A stretch of DNA of 36,939 nt, from positions 1 to 36,939 of the IMG/VR virus record IMGVR_UViG_3300028840_002895. The stretch is one strand, 5' to 3'. The stretch comes from a virus. This document shows, piece after piece, positions 1,849 through 21,269 of this stretch. The notes beneath the pieces are model-generated. The model did no database searches. It was not told where the DNA came from and saw only the letters and a list, made by a program, of their open reading frames with translations. The position numbers and the translations under genes were made by a program. The stretch's first letter is position 1. Each line of letters starts with the position of its first letter.

Positions 1849-4338
1849 TTAGAACTGGTTCACCACTTCGCTGAACGCAACACCAGTAGGCACTGCAATG
1901 AAGTTCAGTTGTATAAAATTTATCGAGCGAGCAGGTTTCACATAGATATCCCCAATGAATTCGTTTCGATCAACAACGGTTGGTGTGTTGTTGGTTTCGT
2001 CACAAACCACAAGGAAATCAGTAATGCCTCGTCGGCCTTGAATATCACGCAGATACGGAACAACCAAATTCTTGAATTGCAGACGAGTAAATTCGTCGTT
2101 AAATTCGAAGAGTGTATATTTCGATGCGCGTGAGATTGCTTTTTCGAGAACAATAAACAAGCGACGAACGTTAATGCGATCAAAAGCACTAGGTTTGCTG
2201 AGCAATGTCTTGTCACCAAACAGAACAGTTCCTTGACGCTTGAACGTCACAACAGGGTTGATTCCATTTTTGTAAAGTTCATCGCGATCTGCATTGCTTG
2301 GATTCCATGCCAGTCGAACAATGTTTTTGATTTGACCACGATTCAAACCGGCTGGTGAATACCATGGATCGGTTGTTCGATCAGTACGAACGCACAGACC
2401 AGCAGTATCACCATTGAGAGGAACCCAACGATATTGATCGTTGTATCGATCAAACATGTACTTATAACCACTATCCAAAACACCATATGATGTCGAGCGA
2501 AGTAGGTTTCGGAAAGTCTTGACTGCATCGAGTTCGTTATTCGGATTGTTAACAACATCACCGCGTTGTGGTGAAATGAGAACAATACAATCCTTGCGAT
2601 ACTCACAAAGGTTATCGATCAGATAGTTTGCCAGGGTTGAAGAACGAGCTTTGCCTTGAAGAACAAGCGAAATGTCCTCAACGTCTTCTTTTGATTGAAA
2701 CTTATCATAACCACCAGTCAATTCACCGATTTCGATATTGCTTTCGTCTTTGCCATCAGCACCATGTGCCAATCGTACAGAAAGGACATCAATAGTCGGT
2801 GATGTTACATTGACAGCGGTGTTTGAAGTAATACCACTCAGATCGTTCGGAATCCAAACGTATTCCGATTGATCGTTGACGACATTCCTGTAGTAGTTTC
2901 CAGAACCATCCGTGTTTTTCGCGTCGGTTGCAATCGACACAGAGCTATACGTTTCGAGAACGCTGCCAGGAACACCAGTGAATTTGCCGCCTTCGTCAAC
3001 AACAACAAGGTGAATTTCATCATTGGCAGAAGAGTTACCAAATGCGCGATTGTAATCAGATTGACCAGGAGCAACATCAATGAAATTGTAGAATTCCCAA
3101 TAACGATTGAAGGTTCGCGTGGTTGCATTCGCAGAGTTGAACGTATAGTTCGTTGCACGAGTGAAACGATCTTCAAAATCAACTTGCAGCGTCAGACGTG
3201 GCGAAATAGTCATTGCATCTGTCGAGACAGCGACGATAGGAGCAGAATCGACAACAAAGGCTGTTGCGTTGGTCACAGATGTGATAATCAGGCCGGTGAG
3301 GCTGTTATTACCAGAAGTCAATTCCATGCCAGCAGCAAGCGACGTTGTGTTGTTTGCAACAACTGTGGTGTTGCCAACCGTTGTCGTGATATCAACATCA
3401 ACTTCTGTTGTTCCATATGTAGTAAACGATGCAGCATTGGTGATGGCAGTAATTTTCATATACTGTTCACCAAGTGTTGTGTTGCCAAACTTAATCAAGT
3501 CCGTTGTATTCAGCAATGCAGCAAGTGCTGTAGCATTTGTCACGTTGTCTGCGTTTGCTGCACCAGCAATCGAGATCAGGGCCGTGTTGGAGTTTGTGTT
3601 GGCTTGAAAACGAGCAGGTGCGCCATATGAAGCAAGATTGATTGTTGAAGTGAAACCGGCTGAGTTGCCACAAACAGAGACGCGCAACGAGTTGCCATAT
3701 TCACCAGGATGTCGTGCAATGTACTTGACATCGGTGTCGATGTTGCCTTCTTTACTCAGCCAATCTGCTTCATTGACAATCGTTGAATATTCCAGGTTTG
3801 CAACTGGTCCAGTGTTACCAACAGCAGAGAAAAGAGTGTTCGAGCGAAATTGAATAGCATCTTCTGTTTTGGTGGCAATAGCACCGCTGTTAGCCGAAAG
3901 AGTAAAAGCGGTAGAGTTCAAAACGCTGCCAATTGTTGCACCAACACTAAGACCAGCGTTGGCAGATGAAATGACTACCATCCCCGCTTCGAGGTATTGC
4001 GTATTGCCGGTTGATAGAGTTACTGTTGCGTTGCCTGTTTGGACGTTGGCTGTGACAGAAGGTGAAAGACCAGCAGTATTACCAACACGAACTGTCCAGA
4101 GCTTATTACCATACGCAAGCGCAGAAGCACCAGTAAACCAAGTTTCGTAGTTGCTGCTATTTGGTTTGCCAAATCGACTTACGAGTTTGACTTCTGAATC
4201 AATCAAAACCCTTTCGTCAACTGGTCCCCAACGAAAAACACCCGCAATGGCACATTCTGTAGTAGACACACTAGGTACGATGGTTGTGAGATCAATTTCA
4301 CGAACCTCTACACCCGGTGAAATGAGTGAAGTAGCCAT
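1849..4338 (-). CDS. 18: Contractile tail sheath protein gp18
   Basis: The 829-residue sheath subunit assembles around the tube and contracts to drive it through the envelope. The N-terminus (MATSLISPGVEVREIDLT ... AIAGVFRWGPVDERVLI) and the C-terminal half (INPVVTFKRQGTVLFGDKTL, INVRRLFIVLEKAISRASKY, ITDFLVVCDETNNTP) are the conserved gp18 core. T4 gp18 is 659 residues. The extra length includes two Asn/Thr-rich beta modules, at about residues 92-155 and 315-378, both with the pattern GNxTV...L..GM...I.SV.N.TAF.....A. These probably form surface-exposed domains. The start has AGGGAGA just upstream, and a GATAAATAC motif lies 53 nt before the ATG. Confidence 0.95.
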   Translation of the reverse strand: MATSLISPGVEVREIDLTTIVPSVSTTECAIAGVFRWGPVDERVLIDSEVKLVSRFGKPNSSNYETWFTGASALAYGNKLWTVRVGNTAGLSPSVTANVQTGNATVTLSTGNTQYLEAGMVVISSANAGLSVGATIGSVLNSTAFTLSANSGAIATKTEDAIQFRSNTLFSAVGNTGPVANLEYSTIVNEADWLSKEGNIDTDVKYIARHPGEYGNSLRVSVCGNSAGFTSTINLASYGAPARFQANTNSNTALISIAGAANADNVTNATALAALLNTTDLIKFGNTTLGEQYMKITAITNAASFTTYGTTEVDVDITTTVGNTTVVANNTTSLAAGMELTSGNNSLTGLIITSVTNATAFVVDSAPIVAVSTDAMTISPRLTLQVDFEDRFTRATNYTFNSANATTRTFNRYWEFYNFIDVAPGQSDYNRAFGNSSANDEIHLVVVDEGGKFTGVPGSVLETYSSVSIATDAKNTDGSGNYYRNVVNDQSEYVWIPNDLSGITSNTAVNVTSPTIDVLSVRLAHGADGKDESNIEIGELTGGYDKFQSKEDVEDISLVLQGKARSSTLANYLIDNLCEYRKDCIVLISPQRGDVVNNPNNELDAVKTFRNLLRSTSYGVLDSGYKYMFDRYNDQYRWVPLNGDTAGLCVRTDRTTDPWYSPAGLNRGQIKNIVRLAWNPSNADRDELYKNGINPVVTFKRQGTVLFGDKTLLSKPSAFDRINVRRLFIVLEKAISRASKYTLFEFNDEFTRLQFKNLVVPYLRDIQGRRGITDFLVVCDETNNTPTVVDRNEFIGDIYVKPARSINFIQLNFIAVPTGVAFSEVVNQF

Positions 4339-4411: not shown

Positions 4412-6160
4412 TCAGTCGGCTATTTGCCAGTTTTCATCTTTGTGCAAGTTCAACTCCAAATCCAAGCTTCTGTTTTCTGCTATACCTCTATCGACAAATC
4501 CTATTGGCAGCAATTCATCTTCCAATTCCTTTTGCTCACGTTCTCGAATGCCCATCAAAGTATTCAGATCAGTGAGCATTTTGAAATACTGCTGTTCTGT
4601 TAACCACGCAAAGAGAACCAAACACATTACCAAATCATCGTGCTTGCCTACTTCCGCTTCGTAGGATTTTCCCTTTTGCGAAAACGTTGCTAACTCATGA
4701 ATTGTATTTTCGTCGTACAGTAGAAGTTGATCTTGTTCTATCAGCAATTTGAGAATTGAACAGCCTATGTTCTTTACAGGAAGCGTTGTACGAACTCCCT
4801 TGTCTGTGGTTTTTCTCAAACTGGTGGTGACTGTTTTGCCACGAGAGCCTTGTGTTGCTGTAAACAACATATTCTCGTATTCATAATCAAAGAATAGCAA
4901 ATCTGCTACTTGTGCGCCGATATCGTTTACCTCGATCATAACGGCACAATCGCCATACATGCGTCCAAAACGATTGATGATTTCCGTGAATTCAATTGGT
5001 GTTATCATGTTATTTCGAAAAACAGCCGCTTGTCTGTATGGCATTTTTGATATATTGATTAGCTGAAAGGCAGAGTAGTCTATACCCTTGCCCCTCGAAA
5101 CATCGCAAACCATAACATACTCATCCCCTTTCTTGTACTGCTCGTACACTTTAAGGCCCAAAACATCATGAGAAGGAAGTTCGATTCCTTCTACAAGTTG
5201 TTTCAGCTTAGAGCCAGTTATGAGAGTTCCAGAGGAACCCAAGTATTCGTTTTCATATTCTTGTGCGAATTTTTCATAATCATAGTTCATGTCGGCTAGT
5301 GTGCGTTCGCGCCACTTTTCGTCACGACCAGGAACATCCTTCCAAGTGACAGAAATAAGCTTGAAGCGATTTTTCTTTTGTCTTGCAAGCTGCGTGACTT
5401 TGTGAAAGTGATTCAGTCCGTTTACTGTACTAACAAGAATAAGTTTGGTTGTTTCACCAGATGAAATCGTTGGATAAACAGAAGTGAAGAATTCATCCCA
5501 ATTTTCAATGAAAGCAGCTTCGTCGATGAAAAGCATGTTGACGGCAAAACCACGAATGTTGTTAGAGCTAGTGGCTGTTGCCATGATTCTAGAACCATTT
5601 TCTAGAATGATAGAGCCTTTATTCCACTCAACGACACCCTGTTGTAGCCATTGAGGTAAATGCTCGTATGCCAGCTTTATTCGAGCCAAAATTTCGCGCG
5701 ACACTTCCGCTTTGTTGGCGAGAATGGCAACGTTCTTGTGATGGTTGAATATGACGTAATGAAGAATTATGGCAGTTATGGCTGTTGTATTATGTGACAA
5801 AATATCATTGGTATAATAACGATGATTTGGCGAATTGACTGTTACGTCATACATATTCGATGATTCATCGGTCTTTATAACTGAAGTAACGGTTTCAATA
5901 CCATCTTTGGTGATGATTTTGGTTTGATTTGGAATGCAGTCCTTCACAAAAATCTGGTTGAAAGAATCATCGAATACAATATGATCATCAGCACACGTTA
6001 TTTCTTTCCCAGAATTCGTTTTTAGAATCCATTCGTCGTATTCAATTGTTTTGTGAATTGCCGCAATGTCTTCCCAACCAGTATCAGTTTCGATTTCCCA
6101 ATCCGAGACATCAAACGATTCTATGAATTTGCGATTTACTGTGTCACATATATCTTTCAC
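4412..6160 (-). CDS. 17: Large terminase gp17, C-terminal gene: split-intein C-part (124 aa) fused to C-extein (458 aa)
   Basis: Encodes the larger part of the DNA-packaging motor. Residues 1-124 are the intein C-part: CADDHIVF (block-B-like, with its His) at about 56-63, and a C-terminal NSPNHRYYTNDILSHN ending in His-Asn. The extein follows at once with TTAITAIILH, the second half of the Walker A loop. Walker B is MLFIDEAAF, the coupling motif is LILVSTVNG, and the nuclease acidic residues are in MVCDVSRGKGIDYSA, VMIEVNDIG and KHDDLVMCLVLF. The only workable start is the GTG at 6160 with AAGGA 8-9 nt upstream; stop codons lie just before it in frame. Spliced to the upstream N-extein the product would be 544 residues, normal for marine T4-like gp17. 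Without splicing it lacks the P-loop GK and could not hydrolyse ATP. Confidence 0.93.
   Translation of the reverse strand: MKDICDTVNRKFIESFDVSDWEIETDTGWEDIAAIHKTIEYDEWILKTNSGKEITCADDHIVFDDSFNQIFVKDCIPNQTKIITKDGIETVTSVIKTDESSNMYDVTVNSPNHRYYTNDILSHNTTAITAIILHYVIFNHHKNVAILANKAEVSREILARIKLAYEHLPQWLQQGVVEWNKGSIILENGSRIMATATSSNNIRGFAVNMLFIDEAAFIENWDEFFTSVYPTISSGETTKLILVSTVNGLNHFHKVTQLARQKKNRFKLISVTWKDVPGRDEKWRERTLADMNYDYEKFAQEYENEYLGSSGTLITGSKLKQLVEGIELPSHDVLGLKVYEQYKKGDEYVMVCDVSRGKGIDYSAFQLINISKMPYRQAAVFRNNMITPIEFTEIINRFGRMYGDCAVMIEVNDIGAQVADLLFFDYEYENMLFTATQGSRGKTVTTSLRKTTDKGVRTTLPVKNIGCSILKLLIEQDQLLLYDENTIHELATFSQKGKSYEAEVGKHDDLVMCLVLFAWLTEQQYFKMLTDLNTLMGIREREQKELEDELLPIGFVDRGIAENRSLDLELNLHKDENWQIAD
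5789..6160 (-). other. Split intein, C-part (IntC, 124 residues)
   Basis: This segment sits ahead of the C-extein TTAITA and ends SHN, so asparagine cyclisation would release it with Thr as +1 nucleophile. It carries a CADDHIVF block-B-like motif and an F-block-like MYDVTVNSPNHRYYTND. No LAGLIDADG or HNH endonuclease domain is present. The length resembles the roughly 100-residue C-parts of atypically split AceL-TerL-type inteins. Its pairing with the N-part at 6252-6365 is inferred from position. Confidence 0.9.
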
Positions 6161-6187
6161 GCAACAATTCCTTTAGGTTTTTGTAAT

Positions 6188-6286
6188 TCATATTTTCCAA
6201 TTCTTGTAGAGACTTGGATTGGGAAGAAAGGTTTTTCCTCTCAGCGTGTTACGGATTGCCGCTTTTTGTTTGTTTGATAAACTCAT
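6188..6286 (-). CDS. Small ORF (32 aa) in the split-intein gap, possibly an endonuclease remnant
   Basis: The ATG at 6286 has a strong Shine-Dalgarno (TAGGAGA, about 6 nt upstream). It encodes MSLSNKQKAAIRNTLRGKTF plus 12 more residues ending in YKNWKI. It overlaps the end of the N-intein gene in another frame and shares its frame with the downstream IntC gene, but TGA and TAA codons separate the two. The KQKAAIRNTLRGK stretch faintly resembles the NUMOD3-type DNA-binding motif of homing endonucleases, so it could be the stub of an endonuclease once carried between the intein halves. It could also be a leader peptide coupling translation to the GTG start. Function is unknown. Confidence 0.4.
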   Translation of the reverse strand: MSLSNKQKAAIRNTLRGKTFLPNPSLYKNWKI

Positions 6287-6623
6287 AAAAATCTCCTATA
6301 GATATACGCATAATTTCACCAGTTGTCTTATTGCATATATTTATAAGCGTGTCAAATTTAACGCACTTTCCACTTTGCCTAGCACACTCTGCCACAACAG
6401 CGTTTTCTTCATGTACTGATGTGATGATGTCTCGCTGGTATGGATAGAGAACAATTTGTTCCAGCCCACGATCAACGTGCACGACTTGCATGTAATTTTC
6501 TGCAAAGTAAATCGGATCATCAGCACATTTTTGCAATTCTGCAATTCGTTCTTCGGACCACGGTATGATCGTATTTGCTTTTTTTAGATTGCTCGAACCT
6601 CTGTAGCCGTTATTTTGTTCCAT
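6249..6623 (-). CDS. 17: Large terminase gp17, N-terminal gene: N-extein (86 aa) fused to split-intein N-part (38 aa)
   Basis: Encodes the first part of the packaging ATPase. Residues 1-86 are the gp17 N-terminus: DDPIYFAENYMQVVHVDRG and LYPYQRDIITSVHEENAVV, then CARQSGK, the first half of the Walker A loop (T4 has SRQLGKTT). Residue 87 is the Cys that opens the intein N-part (CVKFDTLINICNKTTGEIMR), which ends 38 residues later at a TAA. The ATG at 6623 overlaps the end of the preceding payload gene by 14 nt, with only a weak ribosome binding site, suggesting translational coupling. The remaining gp17 sequence is in the separate gene at 4412-6160, in another frame. This arrangement is best read as trans-splicing rather than a pseudogene, because both intein termini and all motor motifs are intact. 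Confidence 0.93.
   Translation of the reverse strand: MEQNNGYRGSSNLKKANTIIPWSEERIAELQKCADDPIYFAENYMQVVHVDRGLEQIVLYPYQRDIITSVHEENAVVAECARQSGKCVKFDTLINICNKTTGEIMRISIGDFYEFIKQTKSGNP
6252..6365 (-). other. Split intein, N-part (IntN, 38 residues)
   Basis: Starts with the catalytic Cys directly after the P-loop lysine and shows a block-A-like CVKFDTLINI followed by GEIMRISIGDFYEFI. It ends at a stop codon before any block B, so the break lies between blocks A and B. Most natural split inteins break much later, near the endonuclease insertion site. AceL-TerL, also in a phage terminase P-loop, has a comparably short N-part of about 25 residues. Confidence 0.9.
6338..6345 (-). promoter_or_regulatory. 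TATAAATA inside the IntN coding region
   Basis: The minus strand carries an exact match to the T4 late -10 consensus TATAAATA, about 180 nt upstream of the GTG of the IntC-terminase gene and about 50 nt upstream of the small ORF. If active it would transcribe the C-part gene separately from the N-part gene. It overlaps codons for LINI, so it may also be coincidental. Confidence 0.35.
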
Positions 6624-8952: not shown

Positions 8953-9429
8953 TTATTCGTGATCATCCAAATCTACATGCATAACACGTACTTCATGATC
9001 AAGTCCGTGTCTTACAGCCATGGGGTATAATCTATGATGTCCGTTTTGCACAAAATGTCTTTTCACCCCATCTTCGCCAGTGAAAGATGCTATCGTTATA
9101 GGATACTTTCTATCGCTATATGGTCGCAGAACCTTTTTTCGCATCAAGCGCATTTTGTTGATGTGTAAATTTGGTTGTGATGGTGTCAACTCTCTCAATT
9201 TCATTCGTTTTGGCTTATAAGCTTCTTTCGGCGGACTTCGTTTCCCCAAAGCATCCCAAAACTCATCCGATAAATGTCCTCGATGTCCAGGTATTGGAAT
9301 GTGTTTTGGTGCTTTCCAATGATCAAATCTGTTTTGATGAGAAGTGGACAACGAATCGATTGCTGTAGTCGTTTGACTAACAGAAAGTCTTCGTCGAGCT
9401 TCTTCTAAAAACTGTTTGAAATTAAGCAC
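8953..9429 (-). CDS. Predicted capsid-targeted ParB-like protein (payload B)
   Basis: A 158-residue protein. With the GTG at 9429 as start (GAGGT 7 nt upstream) it opens MLNFKQFLEE-ARRR, a capsid-targeting tag with an L-E-E cleavage site; a longer frame from 9462 would bury the tag. From about residue 76 it shows the ParB/sulfiredoxin-like pattern: KLRELTPSQPNL, YPITIASF, then FVQNGHHRLYPMAVRHGLDH and EVRVMHVDL. This GHHR signature is typical of ParB N-terminal domains, which bind or hydrolyse nucleotides, and some are nucleases. The GTG overlaps the end of the small ORF at 9422-9511. It could act on host or phage DNA after injection, but no activity can be assigned. Confidence 0.78.
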   Translation of the reverse strand: MLNFKQFLEEARRRLSVSQTTTAIDSLSTSHQNRFDHWKAPKHIPIPGHRGHLSDEFWDALGKRSPPKEAYKPKRMKLRELTPSQPNLHINKMRLMRKKVLRPYSDRKYPITIASFTGEDGVKRHFVQNGHHRLYPMAVRHGLDHEVRVMHVDLDDHE

Positions 9430-9511: not shown

Positions 9512-9582
9512 TTTTTTTTTTTCATATCAACAGGTTCTGGTCTGGGAGCTTCCGATAGCGTATCATCTTCTTTGTATCCCAT
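9508..9582 (-). CDS. Short ORF duplicating the gp16 N-terminus
   Basis: A 24-codon ORF, MGYKEDDTLSEAPRPEPVDM followed by four Lys codons. The first 12 residues differ from the gp16 N-terminus (MGYKDDDTLSEA) at one position. Its ATG overlaps the TAA of the preceding gene (TAATG), with GAGG close upstream. It stops directly after A12, where a one-base slip would carry the ribosome into the 29-residue frame at 9422-9511. Possible readings are an insertion scar that copied the gp16 start, or a small gene expressed by slippage. Confidence 0.5.
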   Translation of the reverse strand: MGYKEDDTLSEAPRPEPVDMKKKK

Positions 9583-11273
9583 TATCCTCGCCTAACATCA
9601 GGACCAGTAGATGATGCAGCAATATAATATCCTTCAGGATGTTTTTGTTTTAGCGTGCCTGGATTTTTTGTGTAGTCACGCGTAGTAAAATTGATTCCTC
9701 GTGCTGCTGCATATTTACGCACATAATTGTGGATATCATGAAGACGCATTACACTAGGAGGGTGGTCTGTATACATGTTTGGTCTCCAAGAGGCATCCAA
9801 CTTATCTGGTTCTGGCGCGTCTCGATCTTCATGTCCTTTGGCTGGTACAAAGGTGACGTTGCCATTACCATCATGAACCAAATGTCCGTGGTGTTCTCCT
9901 TGAATCTTTGATCCCGGTTTTACCGCACCAAACAAATCATTGCCTGTTATGCGAACTTTTCTTTTTTGGCCCTTTTTTAATTGCTTGGCAGCTTCCAATT
10001 CTTTATTGTGTTCATGCACAGCATCGACATGATTCAGCAATTCACAAACAAGTTTATGCGCATGATGTTCAGGATGTTTGGCTTGGAATTGGGATTTCGA
10101 CATCTTAGATATCAGATTCGATAGCATCGCATTTTTGCCGGTGGAAAAACCAAGACAGTTATCGCGACACTCGTGCGAACTTTCTGGACAATTGTTTGTT
10201 CCCGACATACCATGCGTGTGCGCTGGTGCACCAGAAACACCAACAGTTATATCTCCAAGACCAGCAGTTTTTTTAATTTTGGTATTATTACCAGTAAAAT
10301 TTCTTGGCGTTTGTCCGGCAAATCCGTGTTCTTTTTGGTGTGCTTTATCAGCAGCATTAGCAGCTTTAGTTGCCGCCCTATCCTTGCGCGGATCATAACC
10401 TTCTTGTTTAAGTTTTTCCGTCACCGCAGAGTAACCGGCTCTTATTCTTCCATGTGCAGTTTCGCCGTTTGCTGCAAATTCCTGGCTTAATTGATGCCCT
10501 GCTTCATGAATTCGATGATATTGATTCACTTCTTTTTCTGTACCACCATTCATTGCTGGATGGTGTGCCATACTCGGAGGTCTTGCAACTTGCGCATGCT
10601 GCGCTTGTCTCAATTGTTTCCTTTTTTCTCTATGCTTATCACCTTCTAATGGATCGGGCAATTCTCGCCCAAAGCGGTGTGTGGCCGCATTCAATTCTAA
10701 GACGCGTTTAATTCCCTTTCCGTCTGGATGATCTGGAACAGGATTGGCGGATGAATGGTGAACAAAGGCACCGCCAGTTTCTGCTTTTTTCTTTGCATCA
10801 CCACTACTAAGCTTCATTTTAAGGCCGCGAACGCCACCGCTTGAACCATCTTCATTTTGTTCAATGGCATCGTCATCATCACCATTATGAATCTTGTAGA
10901 AACGATTGTGTTTGTGATCATATACATGCGTTGCTGTATTTTCGCCTTCATCAGCATGCACAAGCGCAGCAATGTTACGCGGACTTGCATTCAAATGATC
11001 TGCAATGATACTATCATTCGATTCGTGATTTCGCGTACCAATATGAGATGTGCTATCGCTGGCTCCATGACGATTTGGAAGGTTCAATGTAATTTCGTTA
11101 ATATAACAATCGTTGCAAAAACTCTCGTTGATATTATAATTACTAGCGCCATTCATATGAGTTGGTGCACGTAAATGACCAAAAAATGCCTGCAATCGTG
11201 TTTTGGCATCGTGTGGTTCCACATCATTGATGCTTGTAGGAATTTCCATCAAAAATTGTTTGAACTTGAGCAT
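9582..11273 (-). CDS. Predicted capsid-targeted Cys/His-rich protein with gp88-like region (payload C)
   Basis: A 563-residue protein, the largest of the tagged set. It opens MLKFKQFLME-IPTS, a capsid-targeting tag with an L-M-E site. The body is very rich in His, Asn and Asp. The region from about 330 to 540 resembles mycobacteriophage gp88-type proteins: a Cys cluster NNCPESSHECRDNCLGFSTG (360-379), KVRITGNDLF (439-448), HDIHNYVRKYAAARGINFTT (512-531) and a DYTKNP close. That family has a CPG-x-C-x-C-type cluster and no settled function. An extra FCNDC pair lies at about 52-56. Start RBS is GGAGAG. The resemblance is by eye, from motif order only; metal binding is inferred. Confidence 0.72.
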   Translation of the reverse strand: MLKFKQFLMEIPTSINDVEPHDAKTRLQAFFGHLRAPTHMNGASNYNINESFCNDCYINEITLNLPNRHGASDSTSHIGTRNHESNDSIIADHLNASPRNIAALVHADEGENTATHVYDHKHNRFYKIHNGDDDDAIEQNEDGSSGGVRGLKMKLSSGDAKKKAETGGAFVHHSSANPVPDHPDGKGIKRVLELNAATHRFGRELPDPLEGDKHREKRKQLRQAQHAQVARPPSMAHHPAMNGGTEKEVNQYHRIHEAGHQLSQEFAANGETAHGRIRAGYSAVTEKLKQEGYDPRKDRAATKAANAADKAHQKEHGFAGQTPRNFTGNNTKIKKTAGLGDITVGVSGAPAHTHGMSGTNNCPESSHECRDNCLGFSTGKNAMLSNLISKMSKSQFQAKHPEHHAHKLVCELLNHVDAVHEHNKELEAAKQLKKGQKRKVRITGNDLFGAVKPGSKIQGEHHGHLVHDGNGNVTFVPAKGHEDRDAPEPDKLDASWRPNMYTDHPPSVMRLHDIHNYVRKYAAARGINFTTRDYTKNPGTLKQKHPEGYYIAASSTGPDVRRG

Positions 11274-11303: not shown

Positions 11304-11312
11304 TTATTTAGT
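11304..11312 (-). promoter_or_regulatory. Weak late-promoter-like motif ACTAAATAA
   Basis: The minus strand reads ACTAAATAA about 31 nt upstream of the payload C start, overlapping the stop of the previous gene. A matching CTAAATAA occurs at the same distance before gp13. It departs from TATAAATA, so confidence is low. Confidence 0.25.
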
Positions 11313-11924
11313 CGAATCCGCTGTATCCTGTTTTCTGGAAACCACAAAGCGACCTCGTTTTTTGTACATCTCGCCAAAGTTTTCTTTGGTGACTTTGGTT
11401 TTTCTGCCATTTGCACTATGCTCTACGTTCAAGTGAGGATGGTTCTCAACCAAATCTCGATATGCATTTACAGAACCACGCGAATGAGCAGTATCAGAAT
11501 GCCATTCGTCTACATGGCCTTGTGTCACGATGTGTGAAATGATGTTTGAATACTTGCCAACCTGTTTGCGATCCTGGTGTGATCCGGTGTTTCGTACAAT
11601 GAATTTTCTCTTTCCACTCGCCCCTCTGGGTGGCAAGCCTTCGCCGTTTATTCGATAATGAACATGGCCCTTGGAATTGGTCACAACAAACCCATCATAC
11701 CCACCAGTTTTTTTATTGTGATCATCATATGAGTGCTTGTATACGTGAAATTTTCCATTCTCTCCGCTACTCATGTGTTCATATATATCACCATAACCAT
11801 CTCGCCTTGAACCGCTTTTGTGAGTAACCGGATCGAAGGTATCGTTGTCATAAAAATCCTTTCGCACGTCATCCACCATTTGTGGCATTTCGCGCAAAAT
11901 TTGTCCAATTCGTTTACCGTACAT
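11304..11924 (-). CDS. Predicted capsid-targeted internal protein (payload D)
   Basis: A 206-residue protein opening MYGKRIGQILRE-MPQM, a variant tag keeping the hydrophobic pair, the L-R-E site and the MPQ that also follows the cut in payload A. The C-terminal part has QGHVDEWHSDTAHSRGSVNA followed by YRDLVENHPHLNVEH, which matches the SD-x(n)-GG-x-W-x-x-L-x-V pattern of the proteins at 6610-7173 and 16908-17483, so a distant common fold is likely. It ends basic (TKVTKENFGEMYKKRGRFVV). No catalytic motif is recognised. It lies between gp15 and payload C. Confidence 0.72.
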   Translation of the reverse strand: MYGKRIGQILREMPQMVDDVRKDFYDNDTFDPVTHKSGSRRDGYGDIYEHMSSGENGKFHVYKHSYDDHNKKTGGYDGFVVTNSKGHVHYRINGEGLPPRGASGKRKFIVRNTGSHQDRKQVGKYSNIISHIVTQGHVDEWHSDTAHSRGSVNAYRDLVENHPHLNVEHSANGRKTKVTKENFGEMYKKRGRFVVSRKQDTADSTK

Positions 11925-12824: not shown

Positions 12825-13361
12825 TCATATTCGATGTCTTTGTCTATTGTGCCAGTCTTCGTATTGTTTCTGTTTCATTTTATCATAGGCACCTTTGCCA
12901 TGTATTCTATCGTGATCTTCTCTTTCGCGCTGTATTTTATCCAGCATTTCTTTTTCAAACCGCTTTCGGACTTCTTCTTCTGTTGCCCCTTTGGTGTTTG
13001 AAACCCTATCTCTCAGGCGAGAAGAAAGATGGTGACCTCGGTTTCGATCATGCCAATCCCATCCTTCTGGATGCAACTGATTGAAAAAATATTGATGATC
13101 GCTCGTATAATAAAGATGTGTCTGATGGCCTCTTTTTCTAATAAACGCATTTTTTTCTGCCTGCGTTTCCATCTGACTAGTTGCCCGCAAAGTCTGGTGC
13201 AAATCTTTCGCGGGCGGTGCCACACCAAGAAATGCGCTTATTCCTGTTGCAGCAGCGGCAGCACTAATAGCGGTATGCCTGCCCAATTTTTTCCAATCAA
13301 GCGCTTCGTCAACTTGTTTTTCGCGCAGCCAATCTTTGTACTCTTCAAAAAGCTCACTCAT
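12825..13361 (-). CDS. Unknown protein with a hydrophobic segment and possible capsid-targeting start
   Basis: A 178-residue protein not recognised as a family. The start MSELFEEYKDWLRE-KQVDEA contains an L-R-E that could be a gp21-type cleavage site, but the rest does not match the MKxFKQF tag, so packaging is uncertain. An Ala-rich hydrophobic stretch, HTAISAAAAATGISAFLGVA (about 29-48), could span or touch a membrane. The C-terminal half is charged and His/Arg-rich (EEEVRKRFEKEMLDKIQRER). The start overlaps the end of the previous gene by 8 nt. Neighbours are gp14 and gp15. Confidence 0.65.
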   Translation of the reverse strand: MSELFEEYKDWLREKQVDEALDWKKLGRHTAISAAAAATGISAFLGVAPPAKDLHQTLRATSQMETQAEKNAFIRKRGHQTHLYYTSDHQYFFNQLHPEGWDWHDRNRGHHLSSRLRDRVSNTKGATEEEVRKRFEKEMLDKIQREREDHDRIHGKGAYDKMKQKQYEDWHNRQRHRI

Positions 13362-15907: not shown

Positions 15908-16378
15908 TTATTTGTCCTTTGACATGTGAATGAACGCTCTATTCCCAAAGTAGAAACCAATACATGCTCCAAATACAGCGTTGGTGTATTCATCCCAAAG
16001 AGTCGAAAGAATTTCCTTGGCTGGCATGTTTTCAGCAAACATGATCAAACCAACGGCTACTTTGATGCCAACAAATGCAATGAAGAACGAATACGTTATA
16101 ACAGGGCGTACAGAAGCACGAAGGATGTCAATATACTTGTTGCTAGGAATATCAGTATCGTGGCGTCGTAGAGATTCTGTCTCTGCCGCAGAGGCTTTAA
16201 CACTCTCAATAAACACCCGACGATCCAATCCTTTAGCCGCCGCTTCCATCCGTAGTTTGGTGAGTTCAATTTCATGTCTAAATCGCTGTCCATTTTCGAG
16301 CCAATTTACCAATTGTGGTATGGCAGACGATAAGATACCGAGAATTGCAGGCAGAACGCCTGCCAATAGAGTAAGCAT
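15908..16378 (-). CDS. Holin-like membrane protein
   Basis: A 156-residue protein with a hydrophobic N-terminus (LLAGVLPAILGILSSAI), a charged helical middle (RHEIELTKLRMEAAAKGLDR) and two C-terminal membrane segments (SVRPVITYSFFIAFVGIKVA; NAVFGACIGFYFGNRAF). The SVRPVITY motif ahead of the membrane segments recurs in phage proteins often annotated as holins. It is the first gene after the terminator at 16418-16440 and has a CATAAATAC motif 32 nt upstream, so it probably heads a transcription unit leading into gp13-gp14. Confidence 0.6.
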   Translation of the reverse strand: MLTLLAGVLPAILGILSSAIPQLVNWLENGQRFRHEIELTKLRMEAAAKGLDRRVFIESVKASAAETESLRRHDTDIPSNKYIDILRASVRPVITYSFFIAFVGIKVAVGLIMFAENMPAKEILSTLWDEYTNAVFGACIGFYFGNRAFIHMSKDK

Positions 16379-16409: not shown

Positions 16410-16418
16410 GTATTTATG
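16410..16418 (-). promoter_or_regulatory. Late-promoter-like motif CATAAATAC after the terminator
   Basis: The minus strand reads CATAAATAC directly after the T-tract of the terminator and 32 nt before the ATG of the holin-like gene. The terminator/promoter pairing makes this one of the most convincing promoter candidates here. Confidence 0.55.
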
Positions 16419-16440
16419 AAAAAAGGCCCCTTGGGGCCTC
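16418..16440 (-). terminator. Rho-independent terminator
   Basis: On the minus strand an 8-bp GC-rich stem (GAGGCCCC paired to GGGGCC plus the first T residues, with an AA loop) is followed by TTTTTT. It overlaps or immediately follows the stop of the tagged ParB-like gene at 16439-16906. Stem and T-tract are textbook for intrinsic termination on this strand. Confidence 0.88.
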
Positions 16441-16906
16441 AGTGTTCCTTATCCAAATTTAGATAATGAACATCTGCATGTTCGTGATCAGCCGCTCTCA
16501 ATGCAACGTAATGGTGATGTCCATTTAGTATCCAATGTTCTCCATTGTGTTTGGCGACTAGCATGTGTGGTTCATCGCCTATTTGAGTTTTCTGTGCAAG
16601 TTTTGAATCGGCTGTTGCGTTTGTCTTTTGCTGTGTTGCTCTCAGGCTTGCCAATCGCACATTCTTGACTGTTGTGTACTTTCGAACATTTCCTGGTCGC
16701 TTATTTTTCCATTTCTCATAAGCAATTAATGCATCGTTGGATTTTTCTGCGTCATAACCTCTTGTTGGTATCATCTGTGGTTCATAATAGGGATCATCGC
16801 CATATTTGGCCTTTTCATATGGGTCTGATCGTCTAATTCTTTGCAGATTTCTCAATGCATGTTCTGTGCTGCGAAGTTCTGCTATAAATTGTTTGAAGCC
16901 TTTCAT
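16439..16906 (-). CDS. Predicted capsid-targeted ParB-like protein (payload E)
   Basis: A 155-residue protein opening MKGFKQFIAE-LRST, a capsid-targeting tag with an I-A-E cleavage site, closest to T4 MKTYQEFIAE. From about residue 82 it shows a ParB-type pattern: VRLASLRATQQ, EPHMLVAKHN, then HWILNGHHHYVALRAADHEH and ADVHYLNL. It is a distant counterpart of the protein at 8953-9429. The GHHH replaces the usual GHHR/GHR, so nucleotide handling may be altered. Its start region is repeated almost exactly at the next tagged gene upstream (16908-17483). A terminator closes the unit immediately downstream. Confidence 0.8.
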   Translation of the reverse strand: MKGFKQFIAELRSTEHALRNLQRIRRSDPYEKAKYGDDPYYEPQMIPTRGYDAEKSNDALIAYEKWKNKRPGNVRKYTTVKNVRLASLRATQQKTNATADSKLAQKTQIGDEPHMLVAKHNGEHWILNGHHHYVALRAADHEHADVHYLNLDKEH

Positions 16907-16915
16907 ATCAGTCCT
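16877..16915 (-). repeat. RBS-plus-targeting-tag repeat, copy 1
   Basis: This 39-nt stretch covers the ribosome binding site (AGGACTGAT), the ATG and the codons for MKGFKQFIAE. It matches 17454-17492 with one mismatch (a Gly versus Ser codon). The sequences on either side diverge, so the start cassette itself was copied. Confidence 0.85.
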
Positions 16916-17483
16916 TCAATTTAACTCTAAAACGAGAATCAAGGGCATGCTCATCCTCGAAGTTTTTGTCCCAATCATCACCAGTGTGCAATTTGATTTT
17001 CTTACCATCTTTGTCGTGTCTGGTAACTTCCACATCACTATGATCATGTACTAGCCTGTGCCAAATACTAGCCCCACCGACACTGTGCTGAGAATCTGAT
17101 TCGATAGTATTGTGTTCGCCGTGATGTAGGATTGTTTTGTAAAAGTGATCAGCACCATAAGAACAATCGGGGTGCTTGGCAACAGAATTGATTCTAAAGT
17201 GTCCCTTTCTAGTAGTGCCGCCCCTAGCTATCATGTGAGTTGGTGTATCTTCATCATCATGGTCATGTGTCAACATGTAAGTGTGTGGTTTAGTTTCTTG
17301 TGGGCTTACCTCATCAGAGGCATAACGCCGACTATAAAAATCATATTCACCAGCGGGTCCATGATATTCATCATGGGCATAAGGACCACCAGATTTTGGA
17401 TGCGGATGATCGTCCAATGTTGATTTATCTATATTAGCATTCAGTTCTGGCATTTCTGCTATAAATTGTTTGAAGCTTTTCAT
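16908..17483 (-). CDS. Predicted capsid-targeted internal protein (payload F, paralogue of A)
   Basis: A 191-residue protein opening MKSFKQFIAE-MPEL, differing from T4 MKTYQEFIAE mainly by conservative changes, with an I-A-E site. The body is His/Asp-rich. Its C-terminal half, GADHFYKTILHHGEHNTIES, GGASIWHRLVHDHSDVEVTR and GDDWDKNFED, is clearly paralogous to the protein at 6610-7173 although the genes are 10 kb apart; the region between tag and shared domain has diverged. RBS is GGAGGAC. The stop overlaps the RBS of the next tagged gene. Probably packaged in the capsid; biochemical activity unknown. Confidence 0.82.
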   Translation of the reverse strand: MKSFKQFIAEMPELNANIDKSTLDDHPHPKSGGPYAHDEYHGPAGEYDFYSRRYASDEVSPQETKPHTYMLTHDHDDEDTPTHMIARGGTTRKGHFRINSVAKHPDCSYGADHFYKTILHHGEHNTIESDSQHSVGGASIWHRLVHDHSDVEVTRHDKDGKKIKLHTGDDWDKNFEDEHALDSRFRVKLKD

Positions 17484-17492
17484 ATCAGTCCT
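17454..17492 (-). repeat. RBS-plus-targeting-tag repeat, copy 2
   Basis: Second copy of the 39-nt start cassette, covering the AGGACTGAT RBS, ATG and the codons for MKSFKQFIAE; one mismatch to 16877-16915. Its upstream end overlaps the stop codon of the holin gene, as copy 1 overlaps the stop of the gene before it. Confidence 0.85.
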
Positions 17493-17793
17493 CCGTCAAC
17501 AATTCTGGCAGCTTCATGTCAGGAGCAGCATCTTTGAGTTTTTCCTTGGTTCTGCCATATGCAGTCACACCAACAATTGTAAGCATCGAGATGTGAAACA
17601 GACCAGCGCCTTTGAGAGTCAATGGTTCCCATTGTGTCAATTCTATTCCGCTATTGCCCATAATCATAAGACCAGCTTGAACAGCAATCATTCCGATTGG
17701 AGCAAGAACGAAGTCGAAGAACACGGTAACGGCATAAATCCAACCGATTGCTGGTCTCCATTTGTTGTGAAAAAATCTCTCATACTTCGTCAT
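17485..17793 (-). CDS. 3TM-type (GTA-like) holin
   Basis: A 102-residue membrane protein expected to form inner-membrane holes at lysis. It shows FHNKWRPAIGWIYAVTVFFD (first membrane segment after the typical WRP), a second around FVLAPIGMIAVQAGLMI, and a third around LFHISMLTIVGVTAYGRTKE ending in the YGRTKEK-type motif common to GTA-holin 3TM proteins. The start overlaps the previous gene by 14 nt with GGAG upstream. No endolysin is visible within the window, so the holin label rests on topology and motif. Confidence 0.75.
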   Translation of the reverse strand: MTKYERFFHNKWRPAIGWIYAVTVFFDFVLAPIGMIAVQAGLMIMGNSGIELTQWEPLTLKGAGLFHISMLTIVGVTAYGRTKEKLKDAAPDMKLPELLTED

Positions 17794-20226: not shown

Positions 20227-20898
20227 TTATTTTCCTGGGTTTTGTGCCATGATGTTTTGGAATTGTGTCAAAGCAGCAGCCTTAGCAGCATTGATGATTC
20301 CTTCTGCATCAGCATTTGTCCAATTAGGGTTAGTGATATTCATAGTGTCGAGTGCACCGAGTGTGTTTCGACGAACACCGGCAATTGCACCAGCAGCAGC
20401 CGCATACCACATAGCTTGCTGAATAACTCTGGTAGAAAGAGTGTGCATGCCTTCATTGGTCAAGGATTCTTCAGTTTGCAGAACAGTCCAACCAGCGGGT
20501 TCAGCAGTATTTGCAGCAGCAGATGCCGAAGCATGCGAATTGGATGATGCATATTCTGCTGTGTATGCGCGTGCTGCATCATACTTTCGATCCCACGAAA
20601 GTTTCTCTGATTCTGGCACGGGACCAGTGATCTGATCTGCCAACCCATCAGCAAACTGAGTAACAGTCGATTTCCAGCTTAGTAAATTTAGTGCGCGTTC
20701 TTCTGCTGTCCATGTTTGAATTGTAAATCCAAGATTTGCATTCAGGTGATCTTGCACTTTCCTTGCAATTTCACCATCCGTTTCCAGAATGATGTTATTG
20801 GCTTGTGGGTCTCGACGACCAGGAACACTCCAAGTGTTTCCTCGTTCGTCAATAAACTTCAGAGTGTTTGTTTCGGTTACTATTAGTTCTGTCATCAT
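20227..20898 (-). CDS. Unknown protein between fibre genes, possibly a fibre chaperone
   Basis: About 223 residues. I chose the ATG at 20898, giving an ATGA overlap with the preceding stop; an ATG at 20895 and one at 20910 are alternatives. The central part has WDRKYDAARAYTAEYASSNS and the C-terminal half GMHTLSTRVIQQAMWYAAAA, IAGVRRNTLGALDTM, then NAAKAAALTQFQNIMAQNPG. This Ala-rich helical pattern with a WDRKYDAAR-type motif resembles phage proteins (DUF4376-like) that sit beside tail-fibre genes and may assist their assembly. Identification is tentative. Confidence 0.55.
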   Translation of the reverse strand: MMTELIVTETNTLKFIDERGNTWSVPGRRDPQANNIILETDGEIARKVQDHLNANLGFTIQTWTAEERALNLLSWKSTVTQFADGLADQITGPVPESEKLSWDRKYDAARAYTAEYASSNSHASASAAANTAEPAGWTVLQTEESLTNEGMHTLSTRVIQQAMWYAAAAGAIAGVRRNTLGALDTMNITNPNWTNADAEGIINAAKAAALTQFQNIMAQNPGK

Positions 20899-21269
20899 CC
20901 TCGTTCCCATTTGGTGTTTAAGTGTTTTGTGCCATCATGGTTATCTATTGCACTAAGATAATGTTGATGTGCTGGTGGGTTTCCCCGCTTGAGAAAATTA
21001 CTCACTCTTTTATGTACTCTGTTCATCGAATTGCGTTCCAATCCAGCCATTGTTTCTGCCATATCTTTATGATAACCAGACACTTTTTTTCTTGTTTCGG
21101 GGTCGTTATGATCATCTGCCGACCATTGCGCAAGCATATTTACCGTATCAAAGGCACGTTCTTCTGTTTTTCTTTGATCTATTTCAGCATTTGCTTTTCG
21201 CCCGCCTCTACCAAATCTATTGACGGCATCTATAACTTGTTCCTTAAGGAACTCCTTGAACGGTTTCAT
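20895..21269 (-). CDS. Predicted capsid-targeted helical protein (payload G)
   Basis: A 124-residue, strongly charged protein opening MKPFKEFLKE-QVID, a capsid-targeting tag with an L-K-E site. The rest is helical and basic (GRGGRKANAEIDQRKTEERA; MAGLERNSMNRVHKRVSNFL), with a His-rich C-terminal region (NPPAHQHYLSAIDNHDG). No family is recognised. Unlike the other tagged genes it lies between two tail-fibre paralogues and overlaps the following gene by 4 nt. Small basic internal proteins of T4 (IPI-IPIII) are a functional precedent, but no sequence relation beyond the tag is seen. Confidence 0.72.
   Translation of the reverse strand: MKPFKEFLKEQVIDAVNRFGRGGRKANAEIDQRKTEERAFDTVNMLAQWSADDHNDPETRKKVSGYHKDMAETMAGLERNSMNRVHKRVSNFLKRGNPPAHQHYLSAIDNHDGTKHLNTKWERG

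Follow-up and report, generated by a model that had tools for sequence, protein, structure and literature searches.

Two adjacent genes of a T4-like phage, F1 and ParB1, encode unrelated proteins and yet begin with almost the same DNA, comprising the stop codon of the gene upstream, a ribosome binding site (RBS), an ATG and the codons of a ten-residue tag. We consider it probable, at roughly 60%, that both are cargo proteins bearing a capsid targeting sequence (CTS), that the start module came to be shared through recent recombination, and that it is a fixed joint at which bodies are exchanged or added. The ten N-terminal residues of F1 and ParB1 would place the proteins in the prohead core; a gp21-type protease would cut the tag after E10, and the bodies would stay in the head for injection. 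We infer this packaging, cleavage and injection by analogy. The two genes would have come to share the module, from upstream stop to tag, by recombination and not because a whole gene was duplicated. A breakpoint at the 3' end of the tag would let the body behind it be exchanged, or a tagged gene be added between two copies of the module. Core genes plus the start module would provide the homology on the left, and a second exchange on the right, homologous or illegitimate, would complete the replacement. Where two copies are present, exchange between them could remove or add the enclosed gene and leave its neighbors undamaged.

The stretch of DNA that was analyzed (hereafter the window) measures 36.9 kb and is part of the genome of a T4-like myovirus without a close cultured relative. 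Among the best-ranked phage records its neck protein is at most ~36% identical to neck proteins of the cyanophage, Cr30 and T4 types. Almost all of its genes lie on the minus strand, as do all features located below by window position. The local order is holin (17485–17793), F1 (16908–17483), ParB1 (16439–16906), a hairpin plus T run resembling an intrinsic terminator directly after ParB1 (16419–16438), a T4-late-promoter-like CATAAATA between ParB1 and the next gene (16411–16418), and the conserved gene hol3 (PHROG 6637; 15908–16378). The holin, which has a PHROG holin match and counterparts in the relatives L007 and L008, thus forms the left flank of the pair and hol3 the right. Six sites like CATAAATA occur on the coding strand and none on the other. 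The hairpin and CATAAATA behind ParB1 (16411–16441) may have arrived with an F1/ParB1 insert.

In BLASTN of 16877–16976 against the window, 16877–16915 and 17454–17492 are identical at 38 of 39 bases, as the initial annotation had reported. The copies belong to the two minus-strand genes F1 and ParB1, and in gene orientation the shared unit reads AGGACTGAT-ATGAAA(A/G)GCTTCAAACAATTTATAGCAGAA. It had been described as spanning the end of the preceding gene, the RBS, the ATG and the tag codons, and this is what we find: the final sense codon of the upstream gene together with its TGA stop, an AGGA ribosome site, the ATG and codons 2–10. Copy 1 (17454–17492) holds the holin stop codon, the AGGA and the start and tag of F1; copy 2 (16877–16915) holds the F1 stop codon, the RBS and the start and tag of ParB1. 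The upstream proteins end within the repeat as ...TED* (holin) and ...LKD* (F1). Both starts have the form TGA-T-ATG in frame, so the preceding stop codon lies inside the repeated unit. The single base difference gives Ser3 in F1 (191 aa, MKSFKQFIAE followed by MPEL) and Gly3 in ParB1 (155 aa, MKGFKQFIAE followed by LRS); the other nine tag residues are encoded without synonymous change, and the last codon of the repeat is the GAA of Glu10. DNA identity between the two genes is 10/12 directly before the ATG and 29/30 in the tag, then 7/30, 8/30 and 22/60 downstream. A 23-nt exact core of the repeat is the sole exact repeat of at least 20 nt between 5 and 18.5 kb. The cassette stands on either side of F1, forming a direct repeat with a period of 577. 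Because F1 lies exactly between the two copies, recombination between them is predicted to remove it, while the stop codon of the holin and the tag of ParB1 would remain whole. The near-identical relative L003 carries the same F1/ParB1 junction, and we judge that the shared start predates the split from L003.

The window has eight tagged genes. Besides F1 and ParB1 these are F2, a tagged paralogue of F1 that fills the payload slot preceding the terminase large subunit, whose flanks match those in L177 (6610–7173); ParB2 (MLNFKQFLEE, GTG start; 8953–9429); P563 (MLKFKQFLME; 9582–11273); P206, a distant relative in the F family whose tag is degenerate and in whose place L003 has a homologue with a standard tag (11304–11924); P178, with a second class of tag (MSELFEEYKDWLRE; 12825–13361); and P124 (MKPFKEFLKE; 20895–21269). 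Only the F1/ParB1 pair has its start in common as DNA, and most tagged genes in relatives have just the amino acids in common, so that the earlier statement that the cassette equips any new reading frame for packaging overreaches. P178 is missing from L003, where both flanks are present (about 3577–3636), an instance of payload presence or absence among close relatives. The terminase large subunit next to F2 (4412–6623) is split at Walker A by an intein-like insert (ARQSGK/C... and ...SHN/TTAITA), the halves of which lie in two reading frames, 6249–6623 and 4412–6160, ~90 bp apart. The latter has a GTG start and a possible RBS. The insert may be an intein that is naturally split, or one that is broken; in L004 the terminase gene is uninterrupted.

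Comparison of the same locus between relatives provides the strongest evidence in the analysis. In 15 contig pairs the two neighbors of a tagged gene are homologous and its body is not. In L242 and L259, 1.46 kb of DNA that is 88% identical extends through the twelfth codon of the gene (+36); the sequences are unlike after this, until identity returns, at 86%, with the final bases of the gene and continues beyond it. Their bodies give one 19-residue match, with E = 0.07. In L177 and L279 the homologous DNA spans about −200 to exactly +30, and the two are homologous again behind the gene. L245 has an extra tagged gene between an upstream gene and a tagged gene that it has in common with L281, each tagged gene having its own tag, so that the extra one lies between two tags. 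This pair is the architecture of the window plus its empty counterpart.

Similar joints are found with a second class of tag, MT..EEY..WL.E, carried by P178 and by genes of L004 and L008. Two neighboring genes of L004 have 24 identical bases from the ATG and differ after it. In L008 (4437–5177) a stretch of 162 alignment columns is present twice, consisting of the end of a gp15-like gene, an intergenic part and the tag as far as its Glu. One copy stands behind a gp15 remnant reading frame (4929–5066), and different bodies follow the two. Each copy contains a vestige of the other tag class (MKTFKHFNAKS... and MKTFKYFNAKS...), at the site that in L007 is occupied by an FKQ-tagged gene. A possible swap of tag class between L238 (type I) and L008 (type II), with bodies starting EQEELEENK, was set aside as too weak (E ~2e-4). 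Contig G009 (L315, 47000–55000) has three tandem genes with a common junction, CCATTATTGATATGAAAAATTTTAAACAATTT, with a few differences. The upstream reading frames end PSQY, PSHY and QSHY (S(H/Q)Y*); different proteins share C-terminal residues here, since their last codons fall within the start module of the gene that follows. The same-locus pairs L242/L259 and L245/L281, together with the duplication in L008, show that bodies are indeed exchanged at the tag among these phages.

What this means for F1 and ParB1 themselves is less direct. The two could have been tagged already, with local gene conversion over a tract of ~40 nt making one start like the other, and no payload gained. Both payload families have tagged homologues elsewhere. 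The F-family members F2, P206, P191 of L003 and a gene of L231 are all tagged and have EMP after the tag, as does F1, which would thus have kept its own tag context; a ParB1 homologue at another location, in L011, has its own diverged tag. Moreover pairs such as that with L231 share 30/30 bases in the tag and not the upstream sequence. Yet conversion need not cover the upstream stop and RBS, which are covered here and in G009, and in the relatives whole bodies have been gained and exchanged at tags. In L007 and L008, moreover, both genes are absent: the holin–hol3 site is empty, and hol3 overlaps the holin stop by ATGA. Because that site is empty there, F1/ParB1 with the terminator and late-promoter-like site may be an addition, or may have been lost in L007/L008. 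Scans of site occupancy using holin and hol3 returned just L003, L007 and L008 plus weak holin matches, and among these relatives none had the holin, cassette and ParB1 without F1. Taken together, we regard conversion as unlikely, though a serious competitor. The proposal of the initial annotation, that payloads are gained by recombination at a portable start cassette, stands for exchange and addition of bodies at the tag in relatives; F1 and ParB1 may owe their shared start either to gain or to conversion, and the direction of the event is one that we infer. No transposase-like gene was seen next to F1, and a transposon was dropped from consideration.

Could selection alone keep independently acquired tags and RBSs alike, through the needs of packaging and translation? 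We surveyed tagged starts in IMG/VR, where a degenerate DNA pattern for MKxFKQFIxE matched at least 120 stretches; a broader tag gave 162 tagged genes on 117 contigs in 88 body clusters. With one gene per cluster averaged, per-codon identity is 0.34–0.98 over codons 1–10 (mean ~0.7), a conservation that is partly by construction since genes were selected by the tag and only the regions outside it are independent. From codon 11 on it is 0.27–0.31, against a background of ~0.3, and upstream it is near background at 0.29–0.35. The alignment of tagged starts suggested by the initial annotation thus shows identity falling from ~0.7 to 0.3 at codon 11, the predicted cleavage site. Most tagged genes have the tag in common as a peptide and not as DNA, because identity is near background upstream and after codon 10; most tagged pairs within one contig share no DNA beyond that required by the amino acids. 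The tag is indeed conserved as protein across the 88 body clusters, and tags on unrelated bodies average 22–24 identical bases of 30, as selection would have it. F1 and ParB1 go further, with the highest start identity (39/42) of ~11,900 unrelated-body pairs, the others reaching 38. The chance that nine shared tag residues have identical codons is p = 0.005 at the codon usage of the window, and the nine identical upstream bases contribute a further factor of ~1e-3, with the AGGA taken as given. The match is still far below chance given the 28 tagged pairs in the window. The shared start is in our judgment unexplained by amino-acid constraint, and selection alone is very improbable.

The bodies behind the tags are unrelated, as the initial annotation had stated. 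BLASTP of F1 against ParB1 matches the N-terminus alone, and a profile of five F-family members aligned with one of four ParB-family members over columns 1–14 and nothing else. F1 and F2 are true paralogues, 48% identical along the whole protein; their DNA shares 23/30 bases in the tag and nothing upstream. Because the paralogues share so little there, the start common to F1 and ParB1 looks younger than the F1/F2 split. The tandem arrangement with a common start and the full-length F1/F2 relationship might speak for a tandem whole-gene duplication after which the bodies diverged. This is scarcely credible and is excluded for F1/ParB1 by the profile comparison, since homology beyond the tag, its expected sign, is absent past residue 14 even between family profiles, and divergence cannot erase a body yet spare the silent sites of its tag.

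The name ParB1 is tentative. The protein does match Pfam ParBc_2 (E = 0.008), and to that extent the earlier label of ParB-like holds, but more weakly than had been stated, at 16.8 bits against a curated cut-off of 23.6. F1 had no Pfam or PHROG match; its structural model has a pLDDT of 60 with non-significant Foldseek matches to GNAT folds, and that of ParB1 was too poor in quality for use. Sequence search of the PDB gave no matches, tblastn of F1 and ParB1 matched none of 50,697 phage records, and IMG/VR searches for F1 relatives with F1 alone and with an F1/F2 alignment found none.

Recombination at the start module remains our preferred reading, and if it extends to the group as a whole, tagged starts may be stable, heritable joints in marine T4-like phages. 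The module would stay at its locus, the injected effectors behind it being swapped or stacked between copies, with at least two tag classes (FKQFIxE and EEYxxWLxE) following one cleavage logic, a modular loading dock for which a search by tag would list the effectors. We put this forward tentatively, at somewhat less than even odds. Among the domains of the tagged proteins are ADP-ribosyltransferase, SAM lyase, Zeta-toxin-type kinase, Ppx/GppA phosphatase, NUDIX, GNAT and nucleotidyltransferase, such as one would expect in early counter-defence and takeover. Provided that tags mark injected proteins, they offer a means of searching uncultured T4-like phages for injected effectors; candidates lie at L195 6505–9422, L234 12946–13677, L274 10007–10621 and elsewhere. 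Breakpoints placed to the base at the tag would explain quick change of cargo without breaking packaging in T4-like phages.

Short repeats that shuffle genes are known in T4-type phages. PeSL cassettes consist of an early promoter and a stem-loop between genes (Arbiol 2010; Comeau 2014), and as summarized in PMC4503421 they resemble the present unit as a short repeat at gene borders that serves accessory-gene shuffling. The unit in the window differs in being an RBS plus a coding tag, and is translated; with 39 nt of stop, RBS and coding tag only, and no early promoter or stem-loop, it was rejected as a PeSL cassette. T4 itself amplifies and deletes genes by recombination between far shorter repeats, with ipIII among the genes lost (PMC9391042). 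There too short-repeat recombination adds or removes accessory genes, but the repeats are typically 6–10 bp in chance places, as against ~40 bp at a functional start here (PMC9391042).

The closest comparison is with the internal proteins (IPs) of T4. These have a 10-residue CTS in which residues 4 and 7 steer targeting and 8 and 10 processing (PMC9026906), and fusion to it leads to packaging and delivery of foreign proteins (PMC9026906, PMC3012670). Ip1–3 are injected and active in the host, for example in anti-restriction (PMC12373910). MKSFKQFIAE and MKGFKQFIAE have hydrophobic or aromatic residues at 4, 7 and 8 and Glu at 10, and like the CTSs of IPI, IPII and IPIII they are ten-residue N-terminal tags with F/Y at 4, F at 7, I/L at 8 and E at 10. 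F1 and ParB1 place one such tag on unrelated bodies within one phage. Of 12 records searched for a gp21-type protease (PF03420), the two tag-bearing contigs of near-genome size encode one; the window fragment does not. The tandem neighbors ipII and ipIII of T4 are identical over 47 nt of RBS, ATG and CTS and then have unrelated bodies, as here, and the bodies differ between phages. The ipII cassette is present in 178 phage records, and the bodies behind it in the records retrieved differ, with lengths of 100, 109 and 157 aa; in T-even phages it stands before ipII, ipIV and other bodies. Given ipII/ipIII and the different bodies behind the ipII cassette, a cassette of the kind first proposed for the window already exists in the model phage T4 and is not new in kind. 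The window differs in that its payload families are unrelated to the IPs, its tagged genes are interspersed with those for holin, neck, terminase and tail, and packaging is putative. Above all its cassette includes the stop codon of the upstream gene, making it a gene-to-gene joint.
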